The notes below the pieces were generated by a model, which worked only from the letters and a program-made list of their open reading frames with translations, was not told the DNA's origin and did no database searches. The position numbers were made by a program, and so were the translations under genes. From Lachnospiraceae bacterium C1.1 (GTDB lineage Bacteria; Bacillota; Clostridia; Lachnospirales; Lachnospiraceae), in assembly GCA_030434875.1 (NCBI GenBank), contig JAUISW010000001.1, positions 4,028,529-4,092,528 on the forward strand: a stretch of 64,000 nucleotides of DNA, read 5' to 3'. Below, one piece after another: positions 5,436-50,491 of the stretch. Each line of letters opens with the position of its first letter. Position 1 is the stretch's first letter.

Positions 5436-7394
5436 ATGGGAAAAAAACGTAAAACAAGAAGAGGAATGATCCATTTAAAATTATTCCTGGTTTTTGCCGC
5501 TTTTACGGTTACGATAAGCCTGATTTTTGGGGTTCTGATTCTTTTCTTCTCTACGGCTTCCATAATTAACCAGTTTATAAGGACTGAGGGGATAATCACC
5601 AGAAATGTTGCCCTGACTATGCTTGAGGAATATAAAGACGAACTCTTAAAGCCTGAACTTTTTACATTGGAGCAGAAAAAAAAGATCACAGAATACATAA
5701 AAGAGGTCAATGGGATAGCCGAGGGCAAGGCAATAGCCATCTATACGGTTGACAGATTTGATAATCCGGTACTCTTATGTGAAGTCGGATATAAAGATGT
5801 GAAAGGAAATTATCAGTTTGGATACAGCCTGTCGAATAACAGTTACGATATTGAGATAAAAAAAGTAGGTGAAAACGGAGATCCGGAGATAATATTCAAA
5901 TGTAATTCAAAAGAGGAGATCAGATATCAGGGCAGCATAATCGGTTATTGCTATGCTTATAGTGAGAATATAGTCTATGATAATATCATCTCGAAAGTGA
6001 TCAACGTTATAGTATCTACAACCGGGACGGTTGCCGGACTTGCTTTTTTTGCCTCTCTTATCGTGAGTCATATGATAGCGCGGCCGATAGGAATATTGAC
6101 AGAGCAGGTTGCCGGTTTTGATATCAGTTCCCCCAATGATTTTTTTAAGAAAAGGATCAGGACGGGGGATGAGATCCAGGTTCTGCAGGAGGTTTTCATA
6201 GAACTGGCATCCAAGTTAAAGTGGGTAACTGAAAACAAGATCGCAGCAGCTGCGGAGAATGAGAGGGAGCTTACACAATACAGTGTTTATAAGAACATGA
6301 AGGAAGGATTTATGCCTAAAAGCTTCGACCTTCCACCTGAATCATTTACAAAAATGGGATGCATGGAGCTGATCACAACAAAACTGAATGCAGACGGATG
6401 TAATTATTTCATAAGAGAAGACGGAAAGATCGTGTTCACGCTTGCCGGCATGGATGAGACAGGGATAATGCCGACGATGCATATGGCAATAATAATGGCT
6501 ATTATAAAAAGCTATATAAATTCTGCCAAAAGCTTTGAAGAATGCATATCTGAGATCAACCGGCAGGCATATGTAAATCAAAACAGCTATTCTTCATGCA
6601 GGGCTTTTTTCGGTATGATAGACAATGAAGAAAACAAGCTTTATTTTATAAACTGTGGTGCACGGCCTGCACTGTTTACAGACCGTAACAGAAACCTGAC
6701 CCATATTACGGGAAAGATATATGATCCCCTGGGATTTTCCGAAAATGTAAATTATAAGGCAGAAGTGATGGATATCAAGGACGGAGACATGATATTTGTC
6801 ACGAACGGCAAGCTGGAGAAGAGCCGTAACATCAACGGAGAGATCTATGATTTTGAAAGATTTTCTGCCGTTGTCGAAGATTATAAAAACAGGGATGCAG
6901 GGGTTGAGGAAATCCTTGCGAAAACCGAGGAAAGCATAATTAATTTCTTTAAGGGCTCACGACTTGACAGCGAGGTTTTAATGCTGGGCTTATCTTATAT
7001 GAAGCCGGATAAGAAAAAGGCTGTAAAAAGGTATCCTCCAACTATGGATCATTCATCAAAGCTTCAGGAATTTGTAATGCTGCAGCTGAAGCAGAACGAT
7101 ATCCCTCCGAAGGTAAATGCCCTGATGAAGGTGATCCTGGAAGAACTATACAGCGTTTTCTGCCATAATACACTTGGAAAAGAAGTAGTTGTTACATGTG
7201 AGATCACGGAAGAGAAAATACTGATAATTGAAATGGAATCAGAAGTCAAAAACGGCAAGAACGCTTTTGACAGCTCGAATTTCCCGGGGATGACATTTAT
7301 AAAACGCAACGTTGACGACTTCAATGCAGAGGAGATCAGAAATCCTAAAGACAACAGGTCAACAACAAAGATCATCATGATAAAGAATCTATGA
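5436..7394 (+). CDS. Membrane sensor with HAMP, degenerate SpoIIE-type phosphatase and RsbW-like ATPase domains
   Basis: The 652-residue protein has a transmembrane helix near residues 14-36, an external sensor domain, a second helix near 185-208 and a HAMP-like linker starting Arg-Pro-Ile-Gly. A PP2C/SpoIIE-type domain (about 300-515) and an RsbW-like HATPase domain (about 535-650) follow. SpoIIE phosphatases normally dephosphorylate STAS anti-anti-sigma proteins, using aspartates in GDxYD, DVSGKG and TDG motifs. Here the matching places read Asp-Gly-Cys-Asn-Tyr, Gly-Met-Asp-Glu-Thr-Gly and Thr-Asn-Gly, so several metal ligands look lost. The ATPase N-box also lacks its Asn. The protein may be a sensory pseudoenzyme. 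It has a GAGGAGG ribosome site and follows the repeat protein closely. Confidence 0.7.
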   Translation: MGKKRKTRRGMIHLKLFLVFAAFTVTISLIFGVLILFFSTASIINQFIRTEGIITRNVALTMLEEYKDELLKPELFTLEQKKKITEYIKEVNGIAEGKAIAIYTVDRFDNPVLLCEVGYKDVKGNYQFGYSLSNNSYDIEIKKVGENGDPEIIFKCNSKEEIRYQGSIIGYCYAYSENIVYDNIISKVINVIVSTTGTVAGLAFFASLIVSHMIARPIGILTEQVAGFDISSPNDFFKKRIRTGDEIQVLQEVFIELASKLKWVTENKIAAAAENERELTQYSVYKNMKEGFMPKSFDLPPESFTKMGCMELITTKLNADGCNYFIREDGKIVFTLAGMDETGIMPTMHMAIIMAIIKSYINSAKSFEECISEINRQAYVNQNSYSSCRAFFGMIDNEENKLYFINCGARPALFTDRNRNLTHITGKIYDPLGFSENVNYKAEVMDIKDGDMIFVTNGKLEKSRNINGEIYDFERFSAVVEDYKNRDAGVEEILAKTEESIINFFKGSRLDSEVLMLGLSYMKPDKKKAVKRYPPTMDHSSKLQEFVMLQLKQNDIPPKVNALMKVILEELYSVFCHNTLGKEVVVTCEITEEKILIIEMESEVKNGKNAFDSSNFPGMTFIKRNVDDFNAEEIRNPKDNRSTTKIIMIKNL

Positions 7395-11260: not shown

Positions 11261-13252
11261 ATGTATAATCCGGAAAAGTATCAGATACCATATTTTATGC
11301 CGAAGAAGCCTACATATAACTGGATAAAGCAGGATCATATCACTAAAGCACCGATATGGTGCAGTGTTGATCTTCGTGATGGAAATCAGGCACTTATAGA
11401 GCCCATGAGCCTTGACGAGAAACTTGAGTTTTTCAGAATGCTGGTTGAGATCGGCTTTAAGGAGATCGAGATAGGTTTTCCGGCGGCTTCGGATACAGAA
11501 TACAGGTTTGCGAGAACACTTATTGAAAACAACATGATCCCACAGGACGTGACTGTGCAGGTACTCACACAGGCAAGGGAACATATCATAAAAAAGACCT
11601 TTGAGGCGGTAAAGGGGGCTCCAAGGGCGATAGTACACCTGTATAATTCGACTTCTGTAGCCCAGAGGGAGCAGGTATTTAAGAAAGATAAGAAGGAGAT
11701 AAAGAATATAGCAGTTGAGGGGGCAAAACTTCTGAAAACCCTTGCAGATGAAACAAATGGAGACTTTCTGTTTGAGTATTCTCCCGAAAGCTTCCCCGGA
11801 ACAGAGGTAGAATATGCCATAGATGTCTGCAATGCAGTGCTTGATGTCTGGAAGCCGAAGAAGGAGAGCAAGGCTATCATAAATATTCCTACGACAGTTG
11901 AAAATGCCATGCCGCACGTATTTGCTACCCAGGTTGAGGCAGTAAGCAATTCCCTTAAATACCGTGATGCAGTAACACTTTCGATCCACCCTCATAATGA
12001 CAGGGGAACCGGTGTTGCAACTGCAGAGATGGCAGTTCTTGCAGGTGCTGACAGGATCGAGGGAACACTTTTCGGAAACGGTGAGAGAACCGGTAACGTT
12101 GATATAGTCACACTTGCGATGAACATGTTCTCACATGGAACAGATTCAAAGCTCGATTTCAGAAATATCAGCAGGATCGGAGAGACTTACGAGAGACTTA
12201 CGAGAATGAGGATCTACGAGAGACAGCCCTACGCAGGACAGCTCGTATTCACTGCTTTCTCAGGTTCACATCAGGATGCTATTTCAAAAGGATTTAAGTG
12301 GCATGACGAGCACCCGGATGAACCTTGGTCGGTACCTTATCTTCCTGTTGATCCTCACGATCTCGGAAGAGAGTATGACGGTGATGTTATCCGCATAAAC
12401 AGCCAGTCCGGAAAGGGCGGTGTAAGCTATATCCTTCAGCACAATTTTGGAATGTCCATTCCGAAGGAAATGCAGGAAGATGTCGGATATATGATAAAGG
12501 GCGTATCGGACAAGGAGCATGCAGAGCTTTCACCCGAGAGAGTCTATCATATATTTGAGGATAAATATATAAATAACGATGGAGTATTTTCCATACCGGC
12601 CTGCCATTTTGAGCAGGTAGACGGAATCCTTGCCCGTGTGACAATAAACAGAGGCGGTAAGGAAACAATGGTGGCTGCTAACGGAAACGGACGTCTCGAT
12701 GCCGTAAGTAATGCTATCAAGTCCTTCTTTAATATCAGCTATGAACTCTCGACTTACACAGAGCATGCATTGACAACGGGTTCATCCTCTAAGGCATGCA
12801 CTTATGTAGGAATCTGCTGTGCAGGAAAGCGCTACTGGGGTGTTGGAATTGATGAAGATATCATTAAGTCATCCATCAGCGCACTTACGGTTGCAGTAAA
12901 TCAGATCGACAGTATCAGAGAGACAAACCTTGATAAGGATCAGAGAATAACCGAGATCATTAATTTTATTCAGGAAAAATATCTTTCTGTAACACTTGAT
13001 GATCTTTCAAGGGAATTCTATCTTTCAAAACCGTATCTTTCCAAATATATTAAGGAAAAGTCCGGCGAGACCTTCAGTGAAAATGTCCAGAAGATCAGGC
13101 TTAAAAAAGCCTGCACACTTCTCAAAAACGGAAATATGAAGGTTGAAAAGGTAGCAGAAAATGTCGGATACCCGAGCGTAGAACACTTTAATCGCCAGTT
13201 CAAAAAGCGTTACGGTATGACACCGGTACAATACAGAAATTCATCTAAATAA
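11261..13252 (+). CDS. leuA: 2-isopropylmalate synthase fused to a C-terminal AraC-type HTH domain
   Basis: Residues 1 to about 555 form a class 2 LeuA. It has the Arg-Asp-Gly-Asn-Gln active-site start near residue 38, the metal-binding His-Pro-His-Asn-Asp (H243, H245), an Asn-Gly-Glu-Arg-Thr-Gly-Asn loop, and a C-terminal leucine-sensing regulatory domain. The enzyme condenses acetyl-CoA with 2-oxoisovalerate, the first committed step to leucine. Residues about 560-662 are an AraC/XylS-type DNA-binding domain with two helix-turn-helix units: one around Leu-Ser-Lys-Pro-Tyr-Leu-Ser, one around Val-Gly-Tyr-Pro-Ser-Val-Glu-His-Phe. The frame is continuous, so it is a true fusion in this sequence. 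A leucine-responsive enzyme-regulator is the obvious inference. No other leu genes are adjacent; a terminator follows. Confidence 0.93.
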   Translation: MYNPEKYQIPYFMPKKPTYNWIKQDHITKAPIWCSVDLRDGNQALIEPMSLDEKLEFFRMLVEIGFKEIEIGFPAASDTEYRFARTLIENNMIPQDVTVQVLTQAREHIIKKTFEAVKGAPRAIVHLYNSTSVAQREQVFKKDKKEIKNIAVEGAKLLKTLADETNGDFLFEYSPESFPGTEVEYAIDVCNAVLDVWKPKKESKAIINIPTTVENAMPHVFATQVEAVSNSLKYRDAVTLSIHPHNDRGTGVATAEMAVLAGADRIEGTLFGNGERTGNVDIVTLAMNMFSHGTDSKLDFRNISRIGETYERLTRMRIYERQPYAGQLVFTAFSGSHQDAISKGFKWHDEHPDEPWSVPYLPVDPHDLGREYDGDVIRINSQSGKGGVSYILQHNFGMSIPKEMQEDVGYMIKGVSDKEHAELSPERVYHIFEDKYINNDGVFSIPACHFEQVDGILARVTINRGGKETMVAANGNGRLDAVSNAIKSFFNISYELSTYTEHALTTGSSSKACTYVGICCAGKRYWGVGIDEDIIKSSISALTVAVNQIDSIRETNLDKDQRITEIINFIQEKYLSVTLDDLSREFYLSKPYLSKYIKEKSGETFSENVQKIRLKKACTLLKNGNMKVEKVAENVGYPSVEHFNRQFKKRYGMTPVQYRNSSK

Positions 13253-34554: not shown

Positions 34555-36699
34555 ATGCCACTTTTTTTGCACAATAACATGTCCGCAAACCTTGCGGAAC
34601 GTTATCTGAAGTTTACAACAAAACAGTCAATGGAGGCTTCGGAGAAGCTTTCATCGGGATATAAGATTAATAAGGCGGCAGACGATGCAGCCGGACTTGC
34701 CATGTCTGAGAAGCTTCGCAGGCGTATAAGGGGACTAAATAAGACACTTGAAAATATCGAGGACGGAATCGGCTATGTCGATGTTGCGGATGGAGCACTT
34801 GCGGAAGTTGATGATATGCTTCATCGCATGAATGAACTTGCCATTAAATCAGCCAACGGAACGCTGACAGATATTGACAGGGGATATATCCAGATGGAGA
34901 TTGGCGGGCTCCGAGACGAGATAGACAGTATTTTTACGGGAACGACCTTTAACGAAAAGTATATATGGCGCCCACTGGACTGGGAGTATACTACTTCGGA
35001 AAGGGTTATCACGCCAACAAGCAGTTACAGGAGTATAGGCGTGACAAACCTAAATTCCGGTGTTATGCCCATCTCCAACAGTACGGCATGTGGATATGGC
35101 TATATATACATGACTGCTACTGTGGATGATGGACTTTCATTTAACTGGACAGGAGAAAACGGAAAAAGCTATACCAGCAAGTCCATTAGCTGGGATGAAC
35201 TTGAAAGCTGCAATTACAGCTTTAATTTATCCGATCTTTTTGACGAGACAGATGATGATACCTATAGTGATCTTGTTGATTCAGACGGAAATCCCGTACT
35301 TGACCTTGCCATGTCATTTTCCGTATCAGACCATGCTGACATTGAGCAGATCGCGGAAAATCTCAATGGTGGAAAAATACAGACCAATATGGGTGTTTCT
35401 TTGAGTGCGGAATGGGAAAATCCTACTACACCCGCTAACATCAGCGGAATCAAAAGTGTGAGTGTCAGTGCTTCAATGAACTATGATGCAGCCTATGCAT
35501 TCAACAGGGATTTTGATGCAAAGGATGATGTCTTTCTTGAACCGCAGCTTAATTCCGAAGGCGGTAACCTGAGCACTTATCCTACTGCTTCAGAGCCTGA
35601 CAACGGATGGACGTTTAAGTTTGAAACGCAAAGTTCAAAGACAAGCTCCGAACCACATGATGAGGGCTCTTCGATAAGCCTTAGTGCAAAATGCAACAGC
35701 CTTTACTATTACGTTTCATATACACCATCAAACTATTCACACCCGACGAGCGAGAATACGGATAATTATTACGGAGAATGGTGGGGTTCAAGTTATTATA
35801 GCTGGTATCAGGAATGGAGACCGGGAATCACCTATAAATATCTTTATAATTCAAATATATCACTGACGGGAATGGAGAAGGGATTTACAGGTCAGACCAA
35901 CACACATGACGGAGGAACATATGATTCGGATGCTTATCCCGGAATACTTAACCAGTCTAACGGGGGTCATAACCCATATGATAACGGCAGCGGAACATTT
36001 GTAATGGGTTTTAACATCACAGCAGATTCTGCCTACAATTATGGGGAGGAGGCAGAAAACGCATCCGATGTCAGGAGCAGTACATCCGTGGGAAGCATGA
36101 CTATTTCCGTAACGCTTGATGCCGCTCAAAGCTATTCTGATGCCGTAAATGCAATAACAAGCCTGTTCAATGGCACGACCGTTCTTGACCTTTATTCGAG
36201 TGGGGCAAGTGATGACAGTTTCGTTATTTATCCACCCATTATCGGTGATGGTCAGGTCAGCTTTGGTGAAATGAGCCACAGTAGTGAGGAATGGTACACT
36301 CTGAACGTCCAGGCCGGCACGGAAAGCAGTCTTAGGGAAAATGTAATTCCCATCAGGTATTATTGTCTTGACATTGACAGGGTAGGACTTTCGGATATTG
36401 ATGTTTCGACGGAGGATAATGCCAGGAAAGCGATCGGAAAGGTCAGGAACGCCCAGAAGATGGTTGACGGGCAGAGGACTTTATTCGGAGCTTATCATAA
36501 CCGCCTGAGCAGCGCAAGACAGGCAAATGAAAACAGTATGATAAACGAGCAGGAAGCCGAGTCAAAGATAAGGGATACGGACATGGCATCGGAAATGGTC
36601 AGGCTTTCCACAGCGAATATCCTTCGCGAAGCCAGTTATTCAATGCTTTCACAGGCAAACAGGAATCCTCAGAAGATAATCGAATTGTTAAACGGGTGA
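34555..36699 (+). CDS. Large flagellin with an extended hypervariable domain
   Basis: The 714-residue protein has full flagellin ends. Residues 1 to about 145 contain Glu-Lys-Leu-Ser-Ser-Gly-Tyr-Lys-Ile-Asn-Lys-Ala-Ala-Asp-Asp-Ala-Ala-Gly-Leu. The last 100 contain the Arg-Asp-Thr-Asp-Met-Ala-Ser-Glu-Met-Val-Arg and Ala-Asn-Ile-Leu-Arg-Glu-Ala helices. Between them is a Ser/Thr/Asn/Tyr-rich surface domain of about 450 residues, with no protease motif seen. Ordinary flagellins have 280-500 residues, so this is a large form, expected to polymerise into the filament with its insert facing outward. The start follows GAGGAAAG. Only nine bases separate it from the next flagellin. Confidence 0.93.
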   Translation: MPLFLHNNMSANLAERYLKFTTKQSMEASEKLSSGYKINKAADDAAGLAMSEKLRRRIRGLNKTLENIEDGIGYVDVADGALAEVDDMLHRMNELAIKSANGTLTDIDRGYIQMEIGGLRDEIDSIFTGTTFNEKYIWRPLDWEYTTSERVITPTSSYRSIGVTNLNSGVMPISNSTACGYGYIYMTATVDDGLSFNWTGENGKSYTSKSISWDELESCNYSFNLSDLFDETDDDTYSDLVDSDGNPVLDLAMSFSVSDHADIEQIAENLNGGKIQTNMGVSLSAEWENPTTPANISGIKSVSVSASMNYDAAYAFNRDFDAKDDVFLEPQLNSEGGNLSTYPTASEPDNGWTFKFETQSSKTSSEPHDEGSSISLSAKCNSLYYYVSYTPSNYSHPTSENTDNYYGEWWGSSYYSWYQEWRPGITYKYLYNSNISLTGMEKGFTGQTNTHDGGTYDSDAYPGILNQSNGGHNPYDNGSGTFVMGFNITADSAYNYGEEAENASDVRSSTSVGSMTISVTLDAAQSYSDAVNAITSLFNGTTVLDLYSSGASDDSFVIYPPIIGDGQVSFGEMSHSSEEWYTLNVQAGTESSLRENVIPIRYYCLDIDRVGLSDIDVSTEDNARKAIGKVRNAQKMVDGQRTLFGAYHNRLSSARQANENSMINEQEAESKIRDTDMASEMVRLSTANILREASYSMLSQANRNPQKIIELLNG

Positions 36700-36708
36700 A
36701 AATGATCT

Positions 36709-38691
36709 ATGGGAATAAGAGTACAGCATAATATTACGGCGTTGAACAGTCAGCGAAATCTTTCCATAACTACGGGAGACCTTTCTAAAAGTTCAGAAAA
36801 ATTGTCGTCAGGCTACAGGATAAATCGTGCGGCAGATGATGCAGCCGGACTCGCCGTATCAGAAAAAATGCGTCGTCTTATAAGGGGATTAACCCAGGCT
36901 TCCAATAATGTTAATGACGGAATTTCATTTATTCAGATTGCTGACGGGGCTTTGACAGAAGTTGATGACATGATACACAGAATAACCGAGCTTTCGGTGA
37001 AGTCGGCAAACGATACCCTGACGGATGATGACAGACAGATGATACAGCTGGAGGTAAATCAGCTTACAGACCAGATAGACAATATTTCAACAAACACGAA
37101 ATTCAATGAGATTCCATGCTTTGCGAATGATGGATATTCTCCAAACGTAACAACTGCCGATATACTTGAAAGGCACAATACGACAGTGACTTACGGTTTT
37201 CTTGATGCATCAGGAGAGATTCAGACAGTTACCGGCCATAGCAATAACAGCGCAAATTCATATACGGGAGATCTTGCAACAATAGCGGATTATGTCGTTA
37301 ATGCTGCAGCTTCAGCCGTTGCAAAGATGTATTCGACTTACAGCAGTTTTTTCAGTTCAGGGGCTTCGGCAGACATACAGGTCGGACTTAATATCGCGAA
37401 TATTGACGGGAGCGGAGGAACCCTTGCCTCGGCTGTTCTTGGATATTCCTCAACGAGTTATTCGGATGGAACAAGCACCGTCAGAATGACCTATAAGATG
37501 AACGTCGATACTTCTGATTTTAATATCAGTAATTATGATAACGGAGAACTTGCAACAACGGTAGCACATGAAATGACACATCTGGTCATGTATGACACCC
37601 TTACAACAGGAATGCTGTCAGGAACTGCCGTATCTTTCCCGTCGTGGTTTGTAGAAGGTATGGCCCAGACTTCAAGCGGTGACAATGGATGGATCTCAGG
37701 TCTCGGAAGCAGTCCGTCCGATTCCGCTGTCAGGAGTTATATGGCCAATTCCTATTACAGGGATTACGGAGCAGGTTATCTTGCCTGTATGTATCTGGGA
37801 TATGTGATAAATAATGTGTCTAACGGAGGAGACGGAACGGTAGAAAGTTCAAACATAACTTCATCATATATTTCTTCCGGACTTGACAAACTGCTTACAT
37901 CATTAACTACAGGTATCGCAACGAGAACCACGAGTCTTTCGGATCAGATTGCAAGCCTGACAGGCGGGAAATACAGTTCTGCATCTGATTTTGCAGCAAA
38001 GGTCTTTACAAGTACGGATGATAATGCGGTTGATTTCATACAGGGGCTTATAACTGCGCGCGGAAGCAGCGGTGCCGGGTCGCTTCTTTCCGAACTGTCA
38101 ACGGCAGATGTAGATGTATTTACAGTTGACGGTTCTGTTACTTCGAATAATTACGATATACTCAAAGCTTACAATAGTGTGACAAATATATTCGGAGATA
38201 TTGATTCGGAGCTCGCCTCGATATCTGACTATACGGCATCCGAGATTTCAGAGGACGGTTTCCCGACACTGCTTTTTGTACAGGCAGGCTCGGAAAAAGG
38301 ACAGATGATCGGGATACGCCGTTATGATGTTTCTGCAAAAACCTTATTCGGAATAGGCTCGGCATCACTTGGTTCCGGCGGTACAACTCTTGTGAATGTT
38401 TCGACTTCTGATTCCGCACGTTCATCATTAGAAGATTGTAAAGATGCAATTAACAGGGTTGCAAATGTCAGGGCTTATCTGGGGTCAACCCAGAACAGGC
38501 TTGAACATACAAAGAAGAATCTGGACAACACCATTGAAAACACAACAGCCGCAGAGTCCGTTATAAGGGATACCGATATGGCTGCTGAAATGGTCAGTTT
38601 TTCCAATAACAATATTTTGGCGCAGGCAGGTCAGTCAATGCTTTCACAGGCAAACAGCCTGAATCAGGGAGTGCTGACGCTTTTGCAGTAG
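36709..38691 (+). CDS. Flagellinolysin: flagellin with an inserted zinc-metalloprotease domain
   Basis: The 660-residue protein has canonical flagellin N- and C-terminal helices (Glu-Lys-Leu-Ser-Ser-Gly-Tyr-Arg-Ile-Asn; Asp-Thr-Asp-Met-Ala-Ala-Glu-Met-Val). The central insert, about residues 150-510, holds a gluzincin site: zinc motif His-Glu-Met-Thr-His at 287-291 and the third ligand E316 in Trp-Phe-Val-Glu-Gly-Met-Ala, 24 residues after H291. Flagellins with such inserts are known as flagellinolysins; in Clostridium they form filaments with thousands of protease sites. Here it is co-transcribed with a second large flagellin under a sigma-D promoter. All catalytic residues are intact. The substrate is unknown. 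Confidence 0.93.
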   Translation: MGIRVQHNITALNSQRNLSITTGDLSKSSEKLSSGYRINRAADDAAGLAVSEKMRRLIRGLTQASNNVNDGISFIQIADGALTEVDDMIHRITELSVKSANDTLTDDDRQMIQLEVNQLTDQIDNISTNTKFNEIPCFANDGYSPNVTTADILERHNTTVTYGFLDASGEIQTVTGHSNNSANSYTGDLATIADYVVNAAASAVAKMYSTYSSFFSSGASADIQVGLNIANIDGSGGTLASAVLGYSSTSYSDGTSTVRMTYKMNVDTSDFNISNYDNGELATTVAHEMTHLVMYDTLTTGMLSGTAVSFPSWFVEGMAQTSSGDNGWISGLGSSPSDSAVRSYMANSYYRDYGAGYLACMYLGYVINNVSNGGDGTVESSNITSSYISSGLDKLLTSLTTGIATRTTSLSDQIASLTGGKYSSASDFAAKVFTSTDDNAVDFIQGLITARGSSGAGSLLSELSTADVDVFTVDGSVTSNNYDILKAYNSVTNIFGDIDSELASISDYTASEISEDGFPTLLFVQAGSEKGQMIGIRRYDVSAKTLFGIGSASLGSGGTTLVNVSTSDSARSSLEDCKDAINRVANVRAYLGSTQNRLEHTKKNLDNTIENTTAAESVIRDTDMAAEMVSFSNNNILAQAGQSMLSQANSLNQGVLTLLQ

Positions 38692-42360: not shown

Positions 42361-43905
42361 TTATAAAGGTATATTGCCATGCCTGCGTCTTGGATTTTCC
42401 GTTACTTTATTTCTAAAAGCGTGAATAGCCTGCAATATCCTCTTTCTCGTCTCTTCAGGAAGTATGACCTCATCTATCATTCCTATGGAAGCTGAATAAT
42501 AAGGATTATAGTACTCTTCCTCGTACTCCTTTTTATACTCTTCCATAAGTTCTTCCGGATCCTCCGCGGTTTTAAGTTCCCTGCGCTTAATTACACCGAC
42601 TGCCGCTTCTGCGCTCATTATGGCAATCTGTGCCGTAGGCCATGCAAATACATAATCTGCACCAAGGCTTTTTGAATTCATTGCAAGATAAGCCCCGCCA
42701 TGTGCCTTTCGCAATATAAGCGTTATTTTAGGCACTGTTGCTTCCGAGAAAGCATAGAGCAGCTTAGCACCCCTTCGGATCACACCGCCATGTTCCTGCT
42801 CAATTCCCGGCATATATCCCGGCACGTCTACCATTGCAATAAGCGGTATGCTGAAAGCATCGCAGAAACGGATAAAGCGTGCTGCTTTTTCCGATGCTTT
42901 TGCATCCAGGCTTCCCGCCAGTTCCTTTGGCTGATTTGCAACTATACCTACAGATTCTCCTCCGATACGCATAAATCCTATAACGATGTTTTTTGCATAT
43001 TCTCTCTGTACTTCAAGGAATAATCCACCATCAGCAATTGAAAGTATCACCGGTCGCATATCGTAGGGTTTTCTTGTATTATCGGGAACCAGATTCTCAA
43101 GCTGGTCTGAATAATCTATGTCCGGATATTCCTTCCAATAAGGCTGCTCATCATAGCTCTGCGGCAGATAATCAAGGAGTTCCCTGACCTTTGCAATACA
43201 GTTTGCATCATCCTTATAGCAGAAATGTGCAAGCCCGGACTCTGCCATGTGCACTTTGGCACCGCCAAGCTCTCCCGCCGTTGTCGTCTGACCTATTGCC
43301 GACTTCACAACTTCCGGTCCTGTAAGATACATCTGCCCGTTATCTTCCTGCATGATCACAAAGTCCATAAGTGCCGGAGAATAGCTTGATACACCGGCGC
43401 AGGGTCCCAAAATGACTGCAATCTGCGGTATTACTCCTGATGCCATCACATTTGCATGAAGTATAGCCGAGCAGGCATCCAGAGCATATATTCCTTCGTC
43501 AATCCTGGCACCTCCGCTGTCATTCAGCGATATATACGGAGCCTTATGATCTATTGCCAGCTTTATAAGCTGGCATATTTTATGTGAATTTCCCTTACTT
43601 ATCGTTCCACCCATGACTGTAAAATCCTGGGATGAAATAAAAACCTGACGTCCGTTGATAAGACCATAGCCTGTAACAACACCGTCTCCCGGAAAGTCTT
43701 TATTGTGGACTCCCTCCACGGGCACATCGGATATCTGGAAGCCTGCAATTTCTACAAATGTATCCCTGTCAACCAGAAGCTCTATTCTCTCTCTTGCAGT
43801 GAGTTTGCCCTTGGCGTGCTGCTTCTCTACCCTTTCCTTTCCGCCGGGGTTATATGCCTTTTCCCTTCTTTTTTTCAATTCATCCCTAAATGACTTATCC
43901 CACAT
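42361..43905 (-). CDS. Acyl-CoA carboxylase carboxyltransferase (propionyl/methylmalonyl-CoA type)
   Basis: The start at 43905 (minus strand) has a CGGAGG site; an upstream in-frame ATG adds six residues. The 514-residue product matches the carboxyltransferase subunit of biotin-dependent acyl-CoA carboxylases and sodium-pumping decarboxylases: Gly-Lys-Leu-Thr-Ala-Arg-Glu-Arg at the N-terminus, Ser-Gly-Gly-Ala-Arg-Ile-Asp-Glu-Gly for CoA binding, and Val-Pro-Gly-Tyr-Met-Pro-Gly. It moves CO2 between biotin and an acyl-CoA. No biotin-carrier or biotin-carboxylase gene is nearby. It is the last gene of the NRPS operon and might supply a malonyl-type extender, or it may be an unrelated housekeeping gene. 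Confidence 0.9.
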   Translation of the reverse strand: MWDKSFRDELKKRREKAYNPGGKERVEKQHAKGKLTARERIELLVDRDTFVEIAGFQISDVPVEGVHNKDFPGDGVVTGYGLINGRQVFISSQDFTVMGGTISKGNSHKICQLIKLAIDHKAPYISLNDSGGARIDEGIYALDACSAILHANVMASGVIPQIAVILGPCAGVSSYSPALMDFVIMQEDNGQMYLTGPEVVKSAIGQTTTAGELGGAKVHMAESGLAHFCYKDDANCIAKVRELLDYLPQSYDEQPYWKEYPDIDYSDQLENLVPDNTRKPYDMRPVILSIADGGLFLEVQREYAKNIVIGFMRIGGESVGIVANQPKELAGSLDAKASEKAARFIRFCDAFSIPLIAMVDVPGYMPGIEQEHGGVIRRGAKLLYAFSEATVPKITLILRKAHGGAYLAMNSKSLGADYVFAWPTAQIAIMSAEAAVGVIKRRELKTAEDPEELMEEYKKEYEEEYYNPYYSASIGMIDEVILPEETRKRILQAIHAFRNKVTENPRRRHGNIPL

Positions 43906-43919
43906 AAAAATACCTCCGT

Positions 43920-45296
43920 TCAAAAATTGATTTTATTATAGATTTCCTTATAATCATTTGAAAGCCTTACAACTATTACACACATGATTGCTGACAAAAG
44001 CCACGAAAAGGGCTCCGACCACCATACTCCGTCCATTCCGAAGAATACAGGAAGGATAAGCACTGATATCACAGGAAATACCAGTATTTCAAACAGCGAT
44101 AAAAGTGCAGACAGCCAGCCGTTATTAAGACCGGTATAGAGTGACGGAAAGAACATTGCACATCCCTTCAGCAATAGAGATATCCCACAGATTCTGAAAC
44201 CTGTAACCCCCAGTTCATAGATTACTTTATTGCCATCGGAAAATATTGCAGAAAGCTGATTTGCAAAGCCTATTGAAATGACAGCAAAAAGCAGTGAATA
44301 GCCAAAAAGTATCAAAAAGCACTTTTTTATCAGACCTTTAAGTTCAGTAAGATTCCTTGCACCATAATGGTAGCCGATCATAGGAACCAGGCTCTCATTA
44401 AAGCCGACAAATAAAACGGTAAAGATTATGAAAACATACATAACTGAACCATAAGAATCTACTCCGGCCTCTCCTGCTATCGCCATAAGTTTATAATTGT
44501 AGACAAAGCCTGCAATGCTCTCCGCTATATTTTCGATCATCTCTGAAAGTCCGTTAATGCATGAATCGGCAATAGGCTTAAATTCGCATTTTGTCCATCT
44601 GAAAAAAAGAATGGCTTCGTCTTTTTTCCTGCTCCTTATATAGTATATGAAGGGTAGAAGGCTTCCGACAAACTGTGCGGTAATTGTACCTATTGCAGCT
44701 CCCCTGACTCCCATTCCAACCACAAGGATCAGGAAAGCATCCAGTCCGATATTTGTTATTCCGGCAATCAGTGTATATACAAAAGTCAGTTCTTCTTTAC
44801 CTGAGGTTATCATAAAAAGCTGAAGTTCATACTGCAGAGCCAGAAATACAGTTCCCAGCATTACAATTTTCCCATACGAAAGAGCTTCCGAAAGAAGCTC
44901 TCCCGAAGCCCCCTGCATAGTCAGGAAGCTTTTCATAAATAAAGCTCCAATAGTTGTCGTCACAATAACAGCTATCAGTGTAAACTCAACCAGCATCGAA
45001 AAGACGTCAACTGCCCTTTCACGCTCATTCTCTCCCAACAGCTTGCCCAGAAGCGCATTTCCTCCGCCTCCTACCATAAAGCCTATCGCAGGAAATATCA
45101 TTACATATGGTGTAACGAGGATACAACCTGCATAGGACGTTTCTGACGTGAAATTAGCTATGAACAGCCCGTCCACGACCATATATATCGAGACAAGCAG
45201 CATCGTGAGCATGGGAACGGCTGCATATCTGATAAGTCCCGGTATCGTATAATGTCTCGAAAGCTCTATATCATCATCTTTTTCTATATCATTCAT
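43920..45296 (-). CDS. MATE-family multidrug/metabolite exporter
   Basis: The start at 45296 overlaps the stop of the NRPS gene (ATGAATGA), so translation is coupled. The 458-residue product has about twelve transmembrane helices and MATE-family features in both halves, such as Ser-Ile-Tyr-Met-Val-Val-Asp-Gly-Leu-Phe-Ile and the Gly-Gly-Gly-Gly-Asn-Ala loop in the first half. MATE pumps export cationic drugs or metabolites using sodium or proton gradients. Placement directly after the NRPS makes export of its product, or self-resistance to it, likely. Confidence 0.92.
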   Translation of the reverse strand: MNDIEKDDDIELSRHYTIPGLIRYAAVPMLTMLLVSIYMVVDGLFIANFTSETSYAGCILVTPYVMIFPAIGFMVGGGGNALLGKLLGENERERAVDVFSMLVEFTLIAVIVTTTIGALFMKSFLTMQGASGELLSEALSYGKIVMLGTVFLALQYELQLFMITSGKEELTFVYTLIAGITNIGLDAFLILVVGMGVRGAAIGTITAQFVGSLLPFIYYIRSRKKDEAILFFRWTKCEFKPIADSCINGLSEMIENIAESIAGFVYNYKLMAIAGEAGVDSYGSVMYVFIIFTVLFVGFNESLVPMIGYHYGARNLTELKGLIKKCFLILFGYSLLFAVISIGFANQLSAIFSDGNKVIYELGVTGFRICGISLLLKGCAMFFPSLYTGLNNGWLSALLSLFEILVFPVISVLILPVFFGMDGVWWSEPFSWLLSAIMCVIVVRLSNDYKEIYNKINF

Positions 45297-48200
45297 CAAA
45301 TAAGTCTCCAATATGGATATTATCCGGATTTTCCCTAATCTTTGCGCAGATTCGGATCATATCCTCCAGCATGGCAGTTGGCACAGCTTTATCAAATTTT
45401 CCAAGCGGCAGAGTGATATTGCAGGCATAGCCGTCCTCATCTTCAAATATCTGGAATTTTGACTGATCAGAAGCCCAACGTTCAGCCGTAATTGTCAGAA
45501 TGTCCGGCTCGGTTTCTTCTTCATTATCCACCATGTTTTCAAATATCTCATCCTCTTCTCCCTCTGTCATGTTTGAAAGCCATTCTTCCCTGACAGTTTC
45601 TCCGTAAAGCGTATGTTCCGAATTATCGGCAGACTGGTATATAAACAGGAAATCCGTCCATCCCGGATATAATTCATGCATTTTTTCCGGTTCCAGAGGT
45701 TCCGATACTCCTTCAAAAAACTGTCTGCTTATATTTCTCATGTATTCTTTTAAGCTTAAGGATTTATCGGCATCCACAGCTACCAGAACCGGACTCACCA
45801 GAATTCCAAAAGTGTTTTTAACACGGTAATCGTCTCTTCCGTTATAAACGATCAGCAGAGGAAACGTGCTGCAGTTGAAAAAGTGTCCAAGTATAAGTGC
45901 CGTGATTCCTGCAAAAAATATATTTTCGGATATGGACAGTATATCAGTTATTTTTTCAAGCTCCTGTCCCGAAATCCTTAGATTTAATGCAGTATCGTTG
46001 AAGCCGATTTCTTCTGTATCTTCTGCATCAGGTATTGAAGGAAACTCATGCAGCTTTCCTAAGAGTTTATCATAGTAAGTTTCCACCCCTGATGTTCTTA
46101 AACTTTCCATCATAAGATTATTTTCAGCTGCATATTGGACAATGTTAACTGACTCCTCCACTATCGTCCTGCCGTCAAGTATTCTTAAAATATCATCTAT
46201 AAAGATGCTTACTGAGTCCCCGTCACCAAGGACATGGGAAAAACGCATTACAAGATATTTATATTGCTCAGTCTCAATGATCCGGAAGTCATAGTAATCC
46301 TTATCCGGATAGATAAGTTCCTTCCCTACATCAGACAGCAGTGAAGACAGTTCCGTTTCCTGAATCCTGATGACCTTTACAGGTATGTTCCGGGCAAGCT
46401 TTTCCATCTCTGAAGTCTCCGGAATAGACACCATCAGCTTTTCGTCATCGTCATCAAACTTCAGGAAAAGCCCCGGATGAATAAGCGAAGCCCTGCGTAC
46501 TGCATCCGTCAGTTTTTCCGCAGGGAGACTTCTGTTAAGCCTTATCATCACCGGCATCACATTCTCCGTAGAATTATACATGTGCCAGAGCCTGTAATAC
46601 ATTCCCTGCGTTATCATTGCAGGAGTTCTTCTTATATCGTCCGTATCTTCCGCGTTCTGTTTTCCAATGATCTTCCTTTCCAGATCCTCGATATTTCCGC
46701 TGCTGCTTATATCGGAGATCCTGAGCGGGATCTTATATTTTTCTCCCAATGCCGCAGTTATTTTCATGAAATCAAGAGAAGTGATCCCCAGTTCAAGTAA
46801 ATCTGTATCTATTCCACCGATCGGGCGTTTAATGATATCGGATATGAGCTTCAATATCATCTTCTGCATATCCGTCTCTGCAGGCTTTCCTTCTTCCGTT
46901 TTGATTTCCGGACGGGGAAGCTTCTTTCTGTCAATTTTCCAGTTCGCCGTCAGCGGCATTTCTTCAAGCCGCACATAAATATCGGGAATCATGTAATGGG
47001 CAAGCTTATCTTTTGCAAATTCGCGTATCCTTCCTCTGGCTTCATCTTCTGAAAGCGCAGGATCATTTAAGGTATAGTAAAAGCAGAGATATCGGTTATC
47101 GACTGCCGTTGCGGCGCATTTCCCTATCAGCGGGCAGTTTGACATGATGCTCTCGATTTCCTGCAGTTCTATACGAAGCCCCCTAAGCTTGACCTGGCTG
47201 TCCATCCTGCCTCTGAAGTCAATCTCCCCATTATCGTCCAGCCTCGCAAGGTCTCCGCTTCTATATGCCCTCATTCCCCGGAAGCTGACGAAAGCTTTCT
47301 TTGTCTGCTCTTCAAGCTTGATATATCCACGTCCGACTCCCCTGCCGCAGATCAGGAGTTCTCCAAGTTCGCCTTTTTCGACTTCATTTAGCTCATCATC
47401 CACTATGTAGCAGGATACATTTGAGGCAGGCTTGCCTATGGTGATATTTTCAGCCGAGGTTATTATCTTTGATATACAGCTTATGGTCGTTTCTGTCGGT
47501 CCGTATCCGTTTATGATGATAACGTCCTGATTTACCTTCCTGATATTGTTGTACAGATCAGGAGGAAATGCTTCTGCACCCATGTCCAATGCCTTAAGCT
47601 TTCCCAAAGCCTCACGCAGCGCCGGTACGGAAAGAAGCATATCAAGAAAGCTCGGAGTACACATCAGAGTATCCACATTATTTTTCAGCATCTGTTCATT
47701 GAAAAGCAGTGGATTCATTATCTGTTCATCCGATGCCATTACAACAGTCATTCCGCTTGTCAGCGGTATGAATTCCTCCATGAGGGAAAAGTCAAAGGTT
47801 AAGGCTGCACAGGCTATGACAGTGTTTCCATGATCTATTATTTCCATTACTTCCCTGTTCTCAGGATCATGCTCCAGGAAATTATATAAATTTCCATGCT
47901 CGATCATGACTCCCTTTGGTCTTCCCGTTGAGCCGGAAGTATAGATACAATAGGCAAGATCATTAGAAGCAATTTCCCTGTCCGGGTTATTCGGCCATTG
48001 TGAAGTGAGAAGGTTTTCAAGGAAAAGCGGTCTCACTCCGAGACTGTCAAAAAGCTCACGTCTCTCTCTGTATATCTTTGTTGAACTTATGATATATCTG
48101 CATCCGGAATCTTCACAGATAAATTTTATCCGCTCGTCAGGATATGCAGTATTTACTGTTGTAAACGCAGCGCCGGATTTAAGTACTCCGATATTGACCG

Positions 48201-48414
48201 CATAGTAGATAAAATTGCGCGGGAGAAATATCATGACGATATCATCCCTTTCAATCCCGTGACAGATTAGTGCATTTGCCAGTCTGTTTGCATACTCGTT
48301 CAGTTCCTGATATGTTAATGAAGCAGTATTCCCTGTCACAGCCGTTTTCTGAGGAACTGTCTCCACCTGTTCCTCAAACATTTTTACTACATTATCAGAG
48401 TTTGATTTATTCAT
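45289..48414 (-). CDS. Nonribosomal peptide synthetase: A-PCP-C
   Basis: The 1041-residue protein contains one adenylation domain (about 15-505), a carrier domain (about 515-590) and a C-terminal condensation-like domain (about 600-940). Adenylation motifs include Tyr-Thr-Ser-Gly-Ser-Thr-Gly-Arg-Pro-Lys-Gly, Asn-Gly-Tyr-Gly-Pro-Thr-Glu-Thr, Tyr-Arg-Ser-Gly-Asp-Leu and the final Lys in Trp-Lys-Ile-Asp-Arg-Lys. The Phe-Asp-Phe-Ser segment keeps the Asp that binds the substrate amino group. The phosphopantetheine serine is in Leu-Gly-Ile-Thr-Ser-Leu-Asp-Phe. The condensation motif reads Ser-His-Val-Leu-Gly-Asp-Gly, lacking the first His. There is no thioesterase. It partners with the STAS-condensation protein encoded just upstream. 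Confidence 0.93.
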   Translation of the reverse strand: MNKSNSDNVVKMFEEQVETVPQKTAVTGNTASLTYQELNEYANRLANALICHGIERDDIVMIFLPRNFIYYAVNIGVLKSGAAFTTVNTAYPDERIKFICEDSGCRYIISSTKIYRERRELFDSLGVRPLFLENLLTSQWPNNPDREIASNDLAYCIYTSGSTGRPKGVMIEHGNLYNFLEHDPENREVMEIIDHGNTVIACAALTFDFSLMEEFIPLTSGMTVVMASDEQIMNPLLFNEQMLKNNVDTLMCTPSFLDMLLSVPALREALGKLKALDMGAEAFPPDLYNNIRKVNQDVIIINGYGPTETTISCISKIITSAENITIGKPASNVSCYIVDDELNEVEKGELGELLICGRGVGRGYIKLEEQTKKAFVSFRGMRAYRSGDLARLDDNGEIDFRGRMDSQVKLRGLRIELQEIESIMSNCPLIGKCAATAVDNRYLCFYYTLNDPALSEDEARGRIREFAKDKLAHYMIPDIYVRLEEMPLTANWKIDRKKLPRPEIKTEEGKPAETDMQKMILKLISDIIKRPIGGIDTDLLELGITSLDFMKITAALGEKYKIPLRISDISSSGNIEDLERKIIGKQNAEDTDDIRRTPAMITQGMYYRLWHMYNSTENVMPVMIRLNRSLPAEKLTDAVRRASLIHPGLFLKFDDDDEKLMVSIPETSEMEKLARNIPVKVIRIQETELSSLLSDVGKELIYPDKDYYDFRIIETEQYKYLVMRFSHVLGDGDSVSIFIDDILRILDGRTIVEESVNIVQYAAENNLMMESLRTSGVETYYDKLLGKLHEFPSIPDAEDTEEIGFNDTALNLRISGQELEKITDILSISENIFFAGITALILGHFFNCSTFPLLIVYNGRDDYRVKNTFGILVSPVLVAVDADKSLSLKEYMRNISRQFFEGVSEPLEPEKMHELYPGWTDFLFIYQSADNSEHTLYGETVREEWLSNMTEGEEDEIFENMVDNEEETEPDILTITAERWASDQSKFQIFEDEDGYACNITLPLGKFDKAVPTAMLEDMIRICAKIRENPDNIHIGDLFDE

Positions 48415-48419
48415 AAAAT

Positions 48420-50036
48420 TTATTTTCCTTCTTTAATTATCTCAAAAACACTCTTGCCCTGTTGCATTTTTATGATGACGTTCCTGAATGTTTTTGCGAA
48501 ATCATCTATTGCCGGTTTCGAATAGCTACCGGGATCATAGCATATAACTACCGAATAACTGCCGTCGTCATGTGCATTCAGCTCAATTTTAACAGTACTG
48601 TCATTGACATTATTCTCATCTTCAGGCAGTGGAACCATCACGGCTTTTGTATCTCCGTAGGTTAATTCACCCCTTCTTCCTATAGCGCCCTTCTGAAATA
48701 TAAATTCCGGACATTCCAAGCCTGCCATCCTTTCATAAACTGTTTCCAGTCCTTTTCTGTTTTTCAGATCCTCCTTAGCAGTAGTTTCTATTTCAGCAAT
48801 ATAATCATTTACGCTCATATCCTTATTAAAGTCAAAGCACATTACCATATCCTCAAGCATAAGCCCCATAATACCGAATTCCTTTGCAGAAGTTCTTCCA
48901 CTATGAACATAGGTCATTATAATGTCCTTTCTGCCAATAGCTATGGAAAGTGCCAGCATTGCTGCTCCCATGAAAAATTCGTTTTCATGGTAAGGAACAG
49001 TATGGAAGAAATCCTTTCTTATCATATCAAGCGGATATTCAGCCTCCTCTTCGCCACTTTTTTCATCCAGGTCGGCAGGCAGTGTATATCCCTCATCTGT
49101 ATAACCTGCCAGTTTTTCTTCCCAATATTTTTTGGCTTCATCTGTATTGTCATTACCGGAAGCCATTTCGCTCCGTATAAGCCCTGCATAGCTTGATCGT
49201 ATCCGCCGAAGCTCTGACACAGTCTTTCCCTTTGATAATTCCTTGTAATATCTGTCAATCTGACGGTAGAAAAGAGCTACCGATGACACCCCATCCATAA
49301 TTGCATGGTAGCAGTCATAATAAAAATACTGTTCGGTTCCTGAGCGCAGGAGTCGGAAATGCCATAATGGACATTCGCTGATCTTGTACGGTTGACTTAA
49401 ATTTCTTAAAGTCTTATTAAGTTCTTCTTCCGTCAGATCTTCTATTTCTATTTCGGCGAATTTTCCGTCAAACCGCTGCTTTATGTCTCCGGTCTCGGTA
49501 TCAATAACAAAATGGCATCTGAAAATATCATGATCCTGAACTGCGGCATTTATTGCATCCCTGAACAGTTCCAGATTCAAAGACGGATCCAGACGTAAAA
49601 GCGTTCTCATATTCATCATTGTCGAACTTGCTTTAATGAAATGAAGATCCATCATCATACGCTGATTAGGCCTCAGAGGATATAGATTATGGTCTTCCTT
49701 AAGCGGGATGTCCGTCCTTTCATATTCGATAGGTATCAGGTTATCAAAGCCTGTCATTGATAACACTTCCATGACAGGCTCTGAGGGTCTTACCACTGTC
49801 AGGTTTCCTCCGGCAGCTGTCATACGCTTATAATTTGACAGAAGAAACCTGAGTCCTGCTGATGAGATATATTCCAGATCCTCCATGTTAATAAAAACTT
49901 CGCTGATTCCTTCGTTTTCAGAAATGGCTTCCTCAAACTTTTTCTCAAGTTCTCTCAATGACAGTGCATCCAACCTTCCTGAAAGACTGATGGTCATTTC
50001 TCTGTTTTCCGTTTCTTTTCTGATATCGATATCCAT
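48420..50036 (-). CDS. STAS domain fused to an NRPS condensation domain
   Basis: Residues 1 to about 105 form a STAS anti-sigma-antagonist domain with the phosphorylatable serine region Ile-Ser-Ser-Ala-Gly-Leu-Arg. Residues about 115-530 form a condensation/acyltransferase-type domain with the HxxxDG core Tyr-His-Ala-Ile-Met-Asp-Gly. STAS domains with this Ser motif are normally phosphorylated by RsbW-type kinases and dephosphorylated by PP2C phosphatases. Their fusion to a condensation domain suggests that peptide bond formation or complex assembly is switched by a phosphorylation relay. The gene leads the operon (AAGGGGGAA site) and ends six bases before the NRPS gene. Confidence 0.88.
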   Translation of the reverse strand: MDIDIRKETENREMTISLSGRLDALSLRELEKKFEEAISENEGISEVFINMEDLEYISSAGLRFLLSNYKRMTAAGGNLTVVRPSEPVMEVLSMTGFDNLIPIEYERTDIPLKEDHNLYPLRPNQRMMMDLHFIKASSTMMNMRTLLRLDPSLNLELFRDAINAAVQDHDIFRCHFVIDTETGDIKQRFDGKFAEIEIEDLTEEELNKTLRNLSQPYKISECPLWHFRLLRSGTEQYFYYDCYHAIMDGVSSVALFYRQIDRYYKELSKGKTVSELRRIRSSYAGLIRSEMASGNDNTDEAKKYWEEKLAGYTDEGYTLPADLDEKSGEEEAEYPLDMIRKDFFHTVPYHENEFFMGAAMLALSIAIGRKDIIMTYVHSGRTSAKEFGIMGLMLEDMVMCFDFNKDMSVNDYIAEIETTAKEDLKNRKGLETVYERMAGLECPEFIFQKGAIGRRGELTYGDTKAVMVPLPEDENNVNDSTVKIELNAHDDGSYSVVICYDPGSYSKPAIDDFAKTFRNVIIKMQQGKSVFEIIKEGK

Positions 50037-50491
50037 AAATTCCCCCTTAGATATTTTTTTACCGCTCTACGAATTGTTTATCGGCACGCTCCCCATTTTT
50101 TACAAGTTTTTTTCTTGTATTTTTTTTATTTTATTTTATAGGAAATTTCACCAGAATTTCTGACCTCATAATTTTGTTACTGTTCACACGCTTTCAGCGT
50201 GCTCCAGTAACGGGTTTTGCCATTTAAGATTGCCTACGGCAATGGGCAAAACCCAGTGTTCAGTCAAAGTTATTGTGGCATAACTGCGCAGCGGAGTGCG
50301 CAGTTTGCCTGTGAACAGTAACATAATTTTGACTAAAAAATGTTATAATATTAACTATTATTTATATAAAACTAACAATATGATATACTTTTACTTAAGA
50401 TGTATCTGGAAAATGGCTTATGAATTGTGCATATGCTTTTTAAGCATAATGCAAAATGTACAGAAAGGTGTTACAAGAGGAGGAATCGGGT
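50037..50491. other. 455-base divergent intergenic region
   Basis: This separates the NRPS operon (minus) from the hydrogenase operon (plus). It holds T-rich sequence with an ACAAG/CTTGT hairpin near 50100, a complete type-B MITE (50176-50322), and an extended -10 promoter candidate (TGTTATAAT, 50341-50349) about 140 bases before the hydrogenase genes. No gene was found in it. Confidence 0.6.
50176..50322. mobile_element. 147-bp MITE (type B, short form) with 8-bp target duplication
   Basis: The ends GTTACTGTTCACA and TGTGAACAGTAAC are exact inverted repeats. ATAATTTT flanks it at 50168-50175 and 50323-50330. It is nearly identical to the copy at 61244-61390. Confidence 0.95.

Follow-up and report, generated by a model that had tools for sequence, protein, structure and literature searches.

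A STAS-condensation fusion heads a nonribosomal peptide synthetase operon in a Lachnospiraceae bacterium, with possible partner-switch control

Introduction

Sigma factors are the best-known targets of partner-switch domains, which activate or silence them. For nonribosomal peptide synthetases (NRPSs), transcription and the supply of precursors are generally regarded as what determines the output. The present analysis concerns a four-gene operon of Lachnospiraceae bacterium C1.1 (4.23 Mb genome in three contigs, assembly GCA_030434875.1), whose lead gene joins a STAS domain to an NRPS condensation domain within one protein. The operon lies in a stretch of 64,000 nucleotides (contig JAUISW010000001.1, positions 4,028,529 to 4,092,528), hereafter the window, to which all coordinates refer unless another locus is named.

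The operon and its parts

Four tightly packed genes run on the minus strand from 50036 to 42361, and encode a STAS-condensation fusion, a synthetase with adenylation, peptidyl carrier and condensation domains (A-PCP-C), a MATE exporter and a carboxyltransferase, an arrangement proposed by an initial annotation of the sequence and confirmed by Pfam. The lead gene (48420..50036) is a single frame of 538 amino acids (aa), in which the proposed fusion holds, with both families above their cut-offs: PF01740 STAS at 59 bits against 22.6 (residues 6-104) and PF00668 Condensation at 127.9 bits against 30.6 (residues 117-523). The STAS domain is set at residues 1-105 (49722..50036) and the condensation domain at residues 110-538 (48423..49709). 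Only 5 base pairs (bp) separate this gene from that of the A-PCP-C synthetase (45289..48414, 1041 aa), whose AMP-binding, PP-binding and Condensation domains all exceed the Pfam cut-offs, and where, by eye, the second condensation motif reads SHVLGDG and the carrier serine lies within ELGITSLDF. The exporter (43920..45311, 463 aa) reaches 81.1 bits for MatE, above cut-off, and our own profiles give MATE alone. Finally, the carboxyltransferase (42361..43923, 520 aa), an operon-specific form of the MmdA type, scores 570 bits for PF01039, above cut-off; against the MmdA family TIGR01117 it stays below the cut-off (662.1 against 998.8 bits), yet it belongs to the wider Carboxyl_trans family. As called from TTG starts, the third gene overlaps the second by 23 bp and the fourth overlaps the third by 4 bp, although the true starts of both may be later in-frame ATG codons (for the exporter, the ATG at 45296).

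The absence of a thioesterase stated in the initial annotation was also borne out, as none matched in the four genes with Pfam or with NCBIfam (for A-PCP-C, among the best 25 of 97 families). Upstream of the lead gene, the divergent region 50037..50455 carries a ribosome-binding-like AGGGGG directly before the first ATG. A scan for promoters and terminators came out barely above shuffled sequences (26 against a mean of 19.8, and 8 against a mean of 5.6) and was left unused.

The STAS domain and its predicted phosphosite

The STAS domain scores 76.2 bits for the antagonist family TIGR00377 (ant_ant_sig, cut-off 53.45), matches SpoIIAA structures by sequence and does not reach the SpoIIAA equivalog TIGR02886 (53.3 against 114.75 bits), so that by its profile matches it is of the RsbV/SpoIIAA type. 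Residues 57-61 of the lead protein read Ile-Ser-Ser-Ala-Gly (context YISSAGL), of which we take the second serine, Ser59 (codon TCA, 49860..49862), to be the phosphosite, by alignment to SpoIIAA/RsbV. In the AlphaFold model Ser59 opens the helix 59-74, in agreement with a serine at the start of the second helix.

The initial annotation had named loss of this serine in homologs as a finding that would refute it. Ser59 is instead invariant in the three known fusions, and is kept in all 83 distinct sequences of a STAS set gathered by similarity with a profile (63 short frames and 20 longer ones, with two rows from one gene of genome G135). Its retention is not automatic, since the STAS domain of a SulP-like transporter of the same genome lacks it, by eye. 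Beside Ser59, the GxLD and TGF motifs are also kept in the fusions, at about 40% identity. Copies in the C1.1 genome aside, the closest STAS of the collected set is a free protein encoded beside a 145-aa kinase frame (46% identical), and the STAS part of the other fusions is 39% identical. A tree of 82 STAS domains groups all three fusion STASs with sequences that are otherwise free STAS proteins (support 88/82, which is not strong in a poorly resolved tree), and separates them from STAS domains fused to APH-like parts, to AMP-ligases or in other ways. The independent origin of the STAS-condensation lineages was considered and set aside, as a single origin is not rejected with this tree (approximately unbiased test, p-AU 0.459).

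The condensation domain

The condensation domain agrees with its family both in profile and in fold. An AlphaFold model from a 52-row alignment, which replaced one from three rows with a predicted local distance difference test (pLDDT) score of 40.5, reaches a pLDDT of 90.9 and shows an intact condensation fold; the folds predicted for the lead protein thus appear undamaged. The HHxxxDG motif reads YHAIMDG, where the first histidine is replaced by tyrosine, and the second histidine (His244) and the DG are retained, as they are in all three fusions (YHAVMDG in that of locus L057, described below). The structural comparison list for the lead protein, which scarcely covered the STAS part, placed the RzmA starter condensation domain and SrfA-C in a tie within 1 Z unit, so no condensation subtype is claimed; as described, neither entry has a STAS domain.

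Distribution of the fusion and of the operon

The search for further STAS-condensation fusions suggested in the initial annotation yielded two. Across overlapping draws of 250 and 397 genomes of the family, the full-length fusion was found in the C1.1 genome and in G052, a member of a second genus; the third came from a contig scan of named genomes, in the metagenome-assembled genome Tb.RUG.8 (locus L057). Two further members of the genus within the 397-genome draw gave no fusion match at the threshold, and 391 genomes of the class gave no additional fusion, with seven more matching in the condensation domain only. These searches scored three to five candidates per genome under strict E-values, so diverged fusions could be missed. 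The fusion is no assembly artefact, because two other genomes encode full-length relatives that are 40-42% identical.

G052 has all four genes in the same order, confirmed by Pfam, whereas the Tb.RUG.8 contig stops inside A-PCP-C. Between the two complete operons, identity is 78% in the carboxyltransferase, 40% in the STAS-condensation protein, 29% in the exporter and 26% in A-PCP-C, and, copies in the C1.1 genome aside, the best match of the window A-PCP-C in the set is part of an NRPS of genome G056 (38%). At E 1e-100 the carboxyltransferase was present in 15 of the 250 genomes including C1.1, but the 78%-identical form only in G052 (next best, 53%); this form and the STAS-condensation fusion co-occur in the same two of the 250 genomes. 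Moreover, a MATE gene adjoins the carboxyltransferase in the two operon copies only, and at none of the 14 other loci fetched, whose flanks were short and in some cases ended by contig ends. From these identities we infer that the carboxyltransferase and the fusion would form a constant pair, around which the amino-acid-selecting module changes. No linked kinase or phosphatase was detected with our profiles within the 19 kilobases (kb) surrounding the G052 operon.

Partner-switch genes beside other synthetases

Complete sets of partner-switch genes adjoin NRPS genes in two other genomes of the family. In G114, a STAS gene (108 aa), a C-A-PCP-reductase gene (1365 aa) starting 3 bases past the STAS stop, a SpoIIE phosphatase and an HATPase_c_2 kinase follow each other head to tail on one strand, a set that by its gene order is the split form of the same order as the window fusion. 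In G056, one strand encodes a MATE exporter with a C-terminal tail (598 aa), a trimodular NRPS (2994 aa), a 4'-phosphopantetheinyl transferase and then STAS, SpoIIE and kinase genes, the last three identified by our own profiles. A kinase and a phosphatase linked to the STAS gene are therefore present in G114 and G056, but not at the window operon. STAS genes, tailed MATEs and NRPS genes also occur together in G057 and G225, and in G233 within a single contig, in two stretches separated by about 14 kb, whereas G135 combines an A-PCP-C, a fusion of LPG_synthase_C with STAS and a MATE-like frame. Fusions of STAS with an AMP-ligase are found in G168 and, by our own profiles, in G041. On a wider scale, the first 53 STAS rows of the 250-genome search were all fetched, and a kinase-like frame or SpoIIE lies beside 37 of these loci and an adenylation domain beside five. 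As judged from these gene neighbourhoods, the link between partner switches and NRPSs extends beyond the window operon, yet as a minority use.

Other STAS proteins were seen along the way. A 428-aa protein of the C1.1 genome (L117 6724-8010, about C1:3.02 Mb) has a C-terminal STAS per Pfam and a remainder that is methyltransferase-like by eye. At L109, L110, L112, L114, L116, L163 and L178 a STAS domain is in several cases followed by a part that, in the sequences inspected by eye, resembles an APH kinase, and some carry an additional HATPase domain. In the C1.1 genome, a free STAS gene (L119 6371-11048) adjoins the genes of an ABC exporter and of a C39-peptidase ABC exporter, with a SpoIIE gene nearby.

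RsbW-like tails on MATE exporters

A second A-PCP-C gene of the C1.1 genome adjoins a longer MATE exporter (608 aa, C1:3899803-3901626), whose C-terminal domain was joined to RsbW-type kinases by our own iterated profile. Comparison of profiles from seven MATE tails and seven kinases gave a probability of 91 and an E-value of 1e-6. Pfam recognises the G056 tail as HATPase_c_2 (38.6 bits, cut-off 27.4) but finds no match in the tail of the 608-aa exporter, which therefore rests on the iterated profile and the profile comparison. In an alignment of 28 rows, the GGLG motif is present in none of 21 tails and in all seven kinases, and the N-box asparagine in six of the tails and again in every kinase. 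This asparagine is kept in five of the six tails beside NRPSs (G056, G057, G225, G233 and G135) and in one of the remaining 15 (post hoc p 0.0017); in a further tail beside an A-PCP-C (G080 contig 2), outside this alignment, it is missing by eye.

The neighbourhoods of these exporters were compared in 33 long-MATE loci, namely 31 listed frames of at least 560 aa (query L049 included) and two shorter ones (G137 and G080 contig 2), which were picked with a STAS gene and an A-PCP-C already known as their neighbours. Profiles recognised a tail in 26, and the seven tailless loci were set aside (condensation domain beside three, partner-switch genes beside none); 30 plain MATEs, a subset of the shorter frames in the same list, served for comparison. 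A STAS, SpoIIE or kinase-like gene lies within 7 kb of 13 of the 26 tailed and none of the 30 plain MATEs (Fisher p 5.5e-6), and a condensation domain of 5/26 and 0/30 (p 0.017). With the query and the two picked loci removed, partner-switch neighbours amount to 12/23 against 0/30 (p 5.1e-6), while condensation domains near all long MATEs, tailed or not, amount to 6/30 against 0/30 (p 0.024). Some genomes contribute several loci, some contigs are cut short and the profiles were self-built; within this sample, tailed MATEs are firmly tied to partner-switch genes, and their tie to NRPSs is by count only suggestive. The adjusted counts weaken the latter, whereas the asparagine kept beside NRPSs speaks for tails that would work as kinase-like domains there. 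Both a STAS-condensation fusion and a close tailed MATE are present in C1.1 (G000) and G052.

HATPase-like parts were also noticed on other transporters. L139 (C1:3387388 of the C1.1 genome), L148, L149 and L102 8919-10514 encode symporter-like proteins with an N-terminal HATPase-like part; in L102 SDF was assigned by Pfam and the N-terminal part by eye, and in the other three the HATPase part is an alignment match and the SDF symporter was read by eye. L138 (C1:3198638, same genome) is by eye an ABC transporter ATPase, seemingly in two frames, with a HATPase-like C-terminal extension.

Switch enzymes in the C1.1 genome

One clear free RsbW-type kinase with intact catalytic motifs and its own STAS gene is encoded at C1:337 kb, the kinase gene at C1:337325-337720. 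The assignment of this pair as SpoIIAB/SpoIIAA was dropped, as the sequence resembles the family's free RsbW-type kinases. The genome gives eight HATPase-like matches at E 0.01, a count that takes in tailed MATEs and others, together with six matches to SpoIIE-type phosphatases, so candidate enzymes for a switch at Ser59 exist in this organism. In the SpoIIE-type phosphatase of the window (5436-7394), the C-terminus is degenerate HATPase-like by our own profile.

Proposed mechanism and alternatives

The operon may make and export a short acylated amino acid or amide, with its lead condensation enzyme under partner-switch control, a proposal to which we give about an even chance. The N-terminal STAS would be a docking module switched by phosphorylation of Ser59, carried out by an RsbW-type kinase and reversed by a SpoIIE-type phosphatase. 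In its unphosphorylated form it would bind a HATPase-fold partner, which would be the kinase itself or else the RsbW-like tail carried by the MATE exporter at C1:3899803-3901626, and this binding would gate the first condensation step or hold the enzyme at the exporter. As for the chemistry, the carboxyltransferase and the fusion, the more conserved pair, would provide a single constant acyl group and attach it, the fast-changing A-PCP-C would pick the amino acid, and the terminal condensation domain would release the product. The initial annotation had proposed direct partner-switch control of an NRPS: the kept Ser59, the complete switches beside NRPSs in other genomes and the kinase and SpoIIE-type genes of this genome favour such control, while its directness goes further than these observations and is put forward as conjecture. 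Partner-switch control of the window enzyme is in any case the best reading, unproven as it stands.

Several observations weigh against it. The main one is that the operon has neither kinase, nor phosphatase, nor MATE tail: our profiles found no kinase or phosphatase gene in or near it, the sole SpoIIE-like gene of the window (53.3 bits, cut-off 25) lies 35 kb away, and the 463-aa exporter has by profile no HATPase-like or RsbW-like tail. In addition, the tail of the 608-aa exporter, a candidate partner, lacks the N-box asparagine, and condensation-domain neighbours of tailed MATEs fall to 3/23 against 0/30 (p 0.076) after removal of the query and the picked loci. Among the five HATPase-like matches of Tb.RUG.8, two of them kinase-size, none was recognised as a tailed MATE (one was uninspected), so the co-occurrence of the fusion with tailed MATEs is only suggestive. 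A condensation domain lies beside only three of the 53 STAS loci, and NRPS control would therefore be one use among several. Finally, long branches lead to the fusion STASs (end 1.79 for one and stem 1.84 for the other pair, against a median end of 0.46), as if they had a different partner or were under looser constraint.

The missing operon kinase and phosphatase would be expected if the STAS were a constitutive dock, for instance to a HATPase-tailed MATE, with phosphorylation unused and the domain occupying the N-terminus, where other synthetases have an upstream carrier or communication domain. This main rival, which we consider somewhat unlikely, would also accommodate the long branches and the absence of GGLG from all the tails (and of the asparagine from that of the 608-aa exporter), since such tails may bind without catalysing. 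A plain docking domain, on the other hand, would have no need of Ser59, which is present in every STAS sequence examined, and this rival also leaves aside the complete kinase-phosphatase sets that adjoin NRPSs in G114 and G056 and the asparagine kept in five of six tails beside NRPSs. If the STAS were instead an inert or solubilising passenger acquired through a chance gene fusion, the long branches and the rarity of the fusion (2/397 genomes of the family and no other in 391 of the class, at the thresholds used) would be no surprise. It would then be hard to see why the fusion persists at about 40% identity with Ser59, GxLD and TGF intact, and STAS genes adjoin NRPSs in other layouts as well, all of which makes a mere passenger very unlikely.

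Control could also flow in the reverse direction, with the fusion acting as an anti-sigma-factor antagonist that sequesters an RsbW-type kinase; gene expression would then follow the state of the synthetase. The resemblance of its STAS to free antagonists paired with kinases (46% for the best) and the one intact free kinase of the genome, which comes with its own STAS gene, are consistent with this. The same kinase, however, is already adjoined by that free STAS gene, and in the layouts seen the switch domains sit on transporters and enzymes (sigma factors were not searched for); we regard this alternative as unlikely.

Beyond partner-switch control of the window enzyme, it is possible, though we hold the idea tentatively, that Lachnospiraceae operate a cell-wide post-translational partner-switch network, in which free or enzyme-fused STAS domains would bind RsbW-like transporter domains, and phosphatase signals would co-activate synthesis and transport with no sigma factor involved. 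The STAS hosts would comprise the condensation enzyme, the AMP-ligase and the LPG_synthase_C-type transferase, together with, by eye, the methyltransferase and the APH-like kinase; the RsbW-like domains, often catalytically degenerate, would be those on MATE exporters and, by eye, on SDF symporters and the ABC ATPase. The window operon would then be the branch in which the STAS has been welded to the NRPS.

Relation to known systems

With RsbV/SpoIIAA and their RsbW/SpoIIAB kinases, the window STAS shares the family and the position of the phosphosite, and the genome also encodes proteins of the kinase and SpoIIE types; it differs in being fused to an NRPS condensation enzyme and in lying in an operon without a kinase. 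Closer in their kind of target are the SiaABCD, HsbA/HsbD and BgrV/BgrR partner switches, which, in the accessible part of the source, act on diguanylate cyclases (PMC8457831), that is, on an enzyme rather than a sigma factor, with the phosphorylation state of a STAS-type protein deciding. In those systems a free-standing switch protein acts on an enzyme that produces cyclic di-GMP (c-di-GMP), whereas the switch proposed here would be built into an enzyme of peptide assembly. In Vogesella indigofera, the response regulator TciR, with REC and RsbW-like domains, affects production of the NRPS pigment indigoidine, and its authors, in the accessible text, note the lack of an RsbV homolog and suggest that the target is perhaps a protein other than a sigma factor (PMC12826045). 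It is thus an RsbW-like protein that affects the output of an NRPS product, but as far as that text goes it has no STAS partner and no fusion to the synthetase. Finally, all4160 of Anabaena is named in a review, in the part accessible, as a STAS-glycosyltransferase (PMC8256260), and so resembles the lead protein in bearing an N-terminal STAS fused to an enzyme outside the SulP family; the enzyme is a different one and no NRPS is named there. In the accessible part of another article, STAS is present only in a reference title (PMC8465540). No STAS-NRPS link was found described, nor anything for SpoIIE, STAS and nonribosomal peptide together, in the literature searched, which mostly leaves out subscription journals and so does not establish absence from print.

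Were the proposal correct, a reversible phospho-switch in a condensation enzyme would provide post-translational on/off control of peptide synthesis, and might be used to steer engineered assembly lines. The recurrent STAS, SpoIIE and HATPase genes of Lachnospiraceae, where sister lineages link the switch to tailed exporters, would likewise gain a role.

Other genes of the window

Elsewhere in the window, a flagellin gene (36709-38691) has a long central insert with a HExxH-type motif (VAHEMTHLV), and Pfam sees only its flagellin ends; the protein is reminiscent of flagellinolysin. A second long flagellin (34555-36699, 714 aa) also has a large central insert. At 11261-13252, an isopropylmalate-synthase-like protein is fused to an AraC-type DNA-binding domain.

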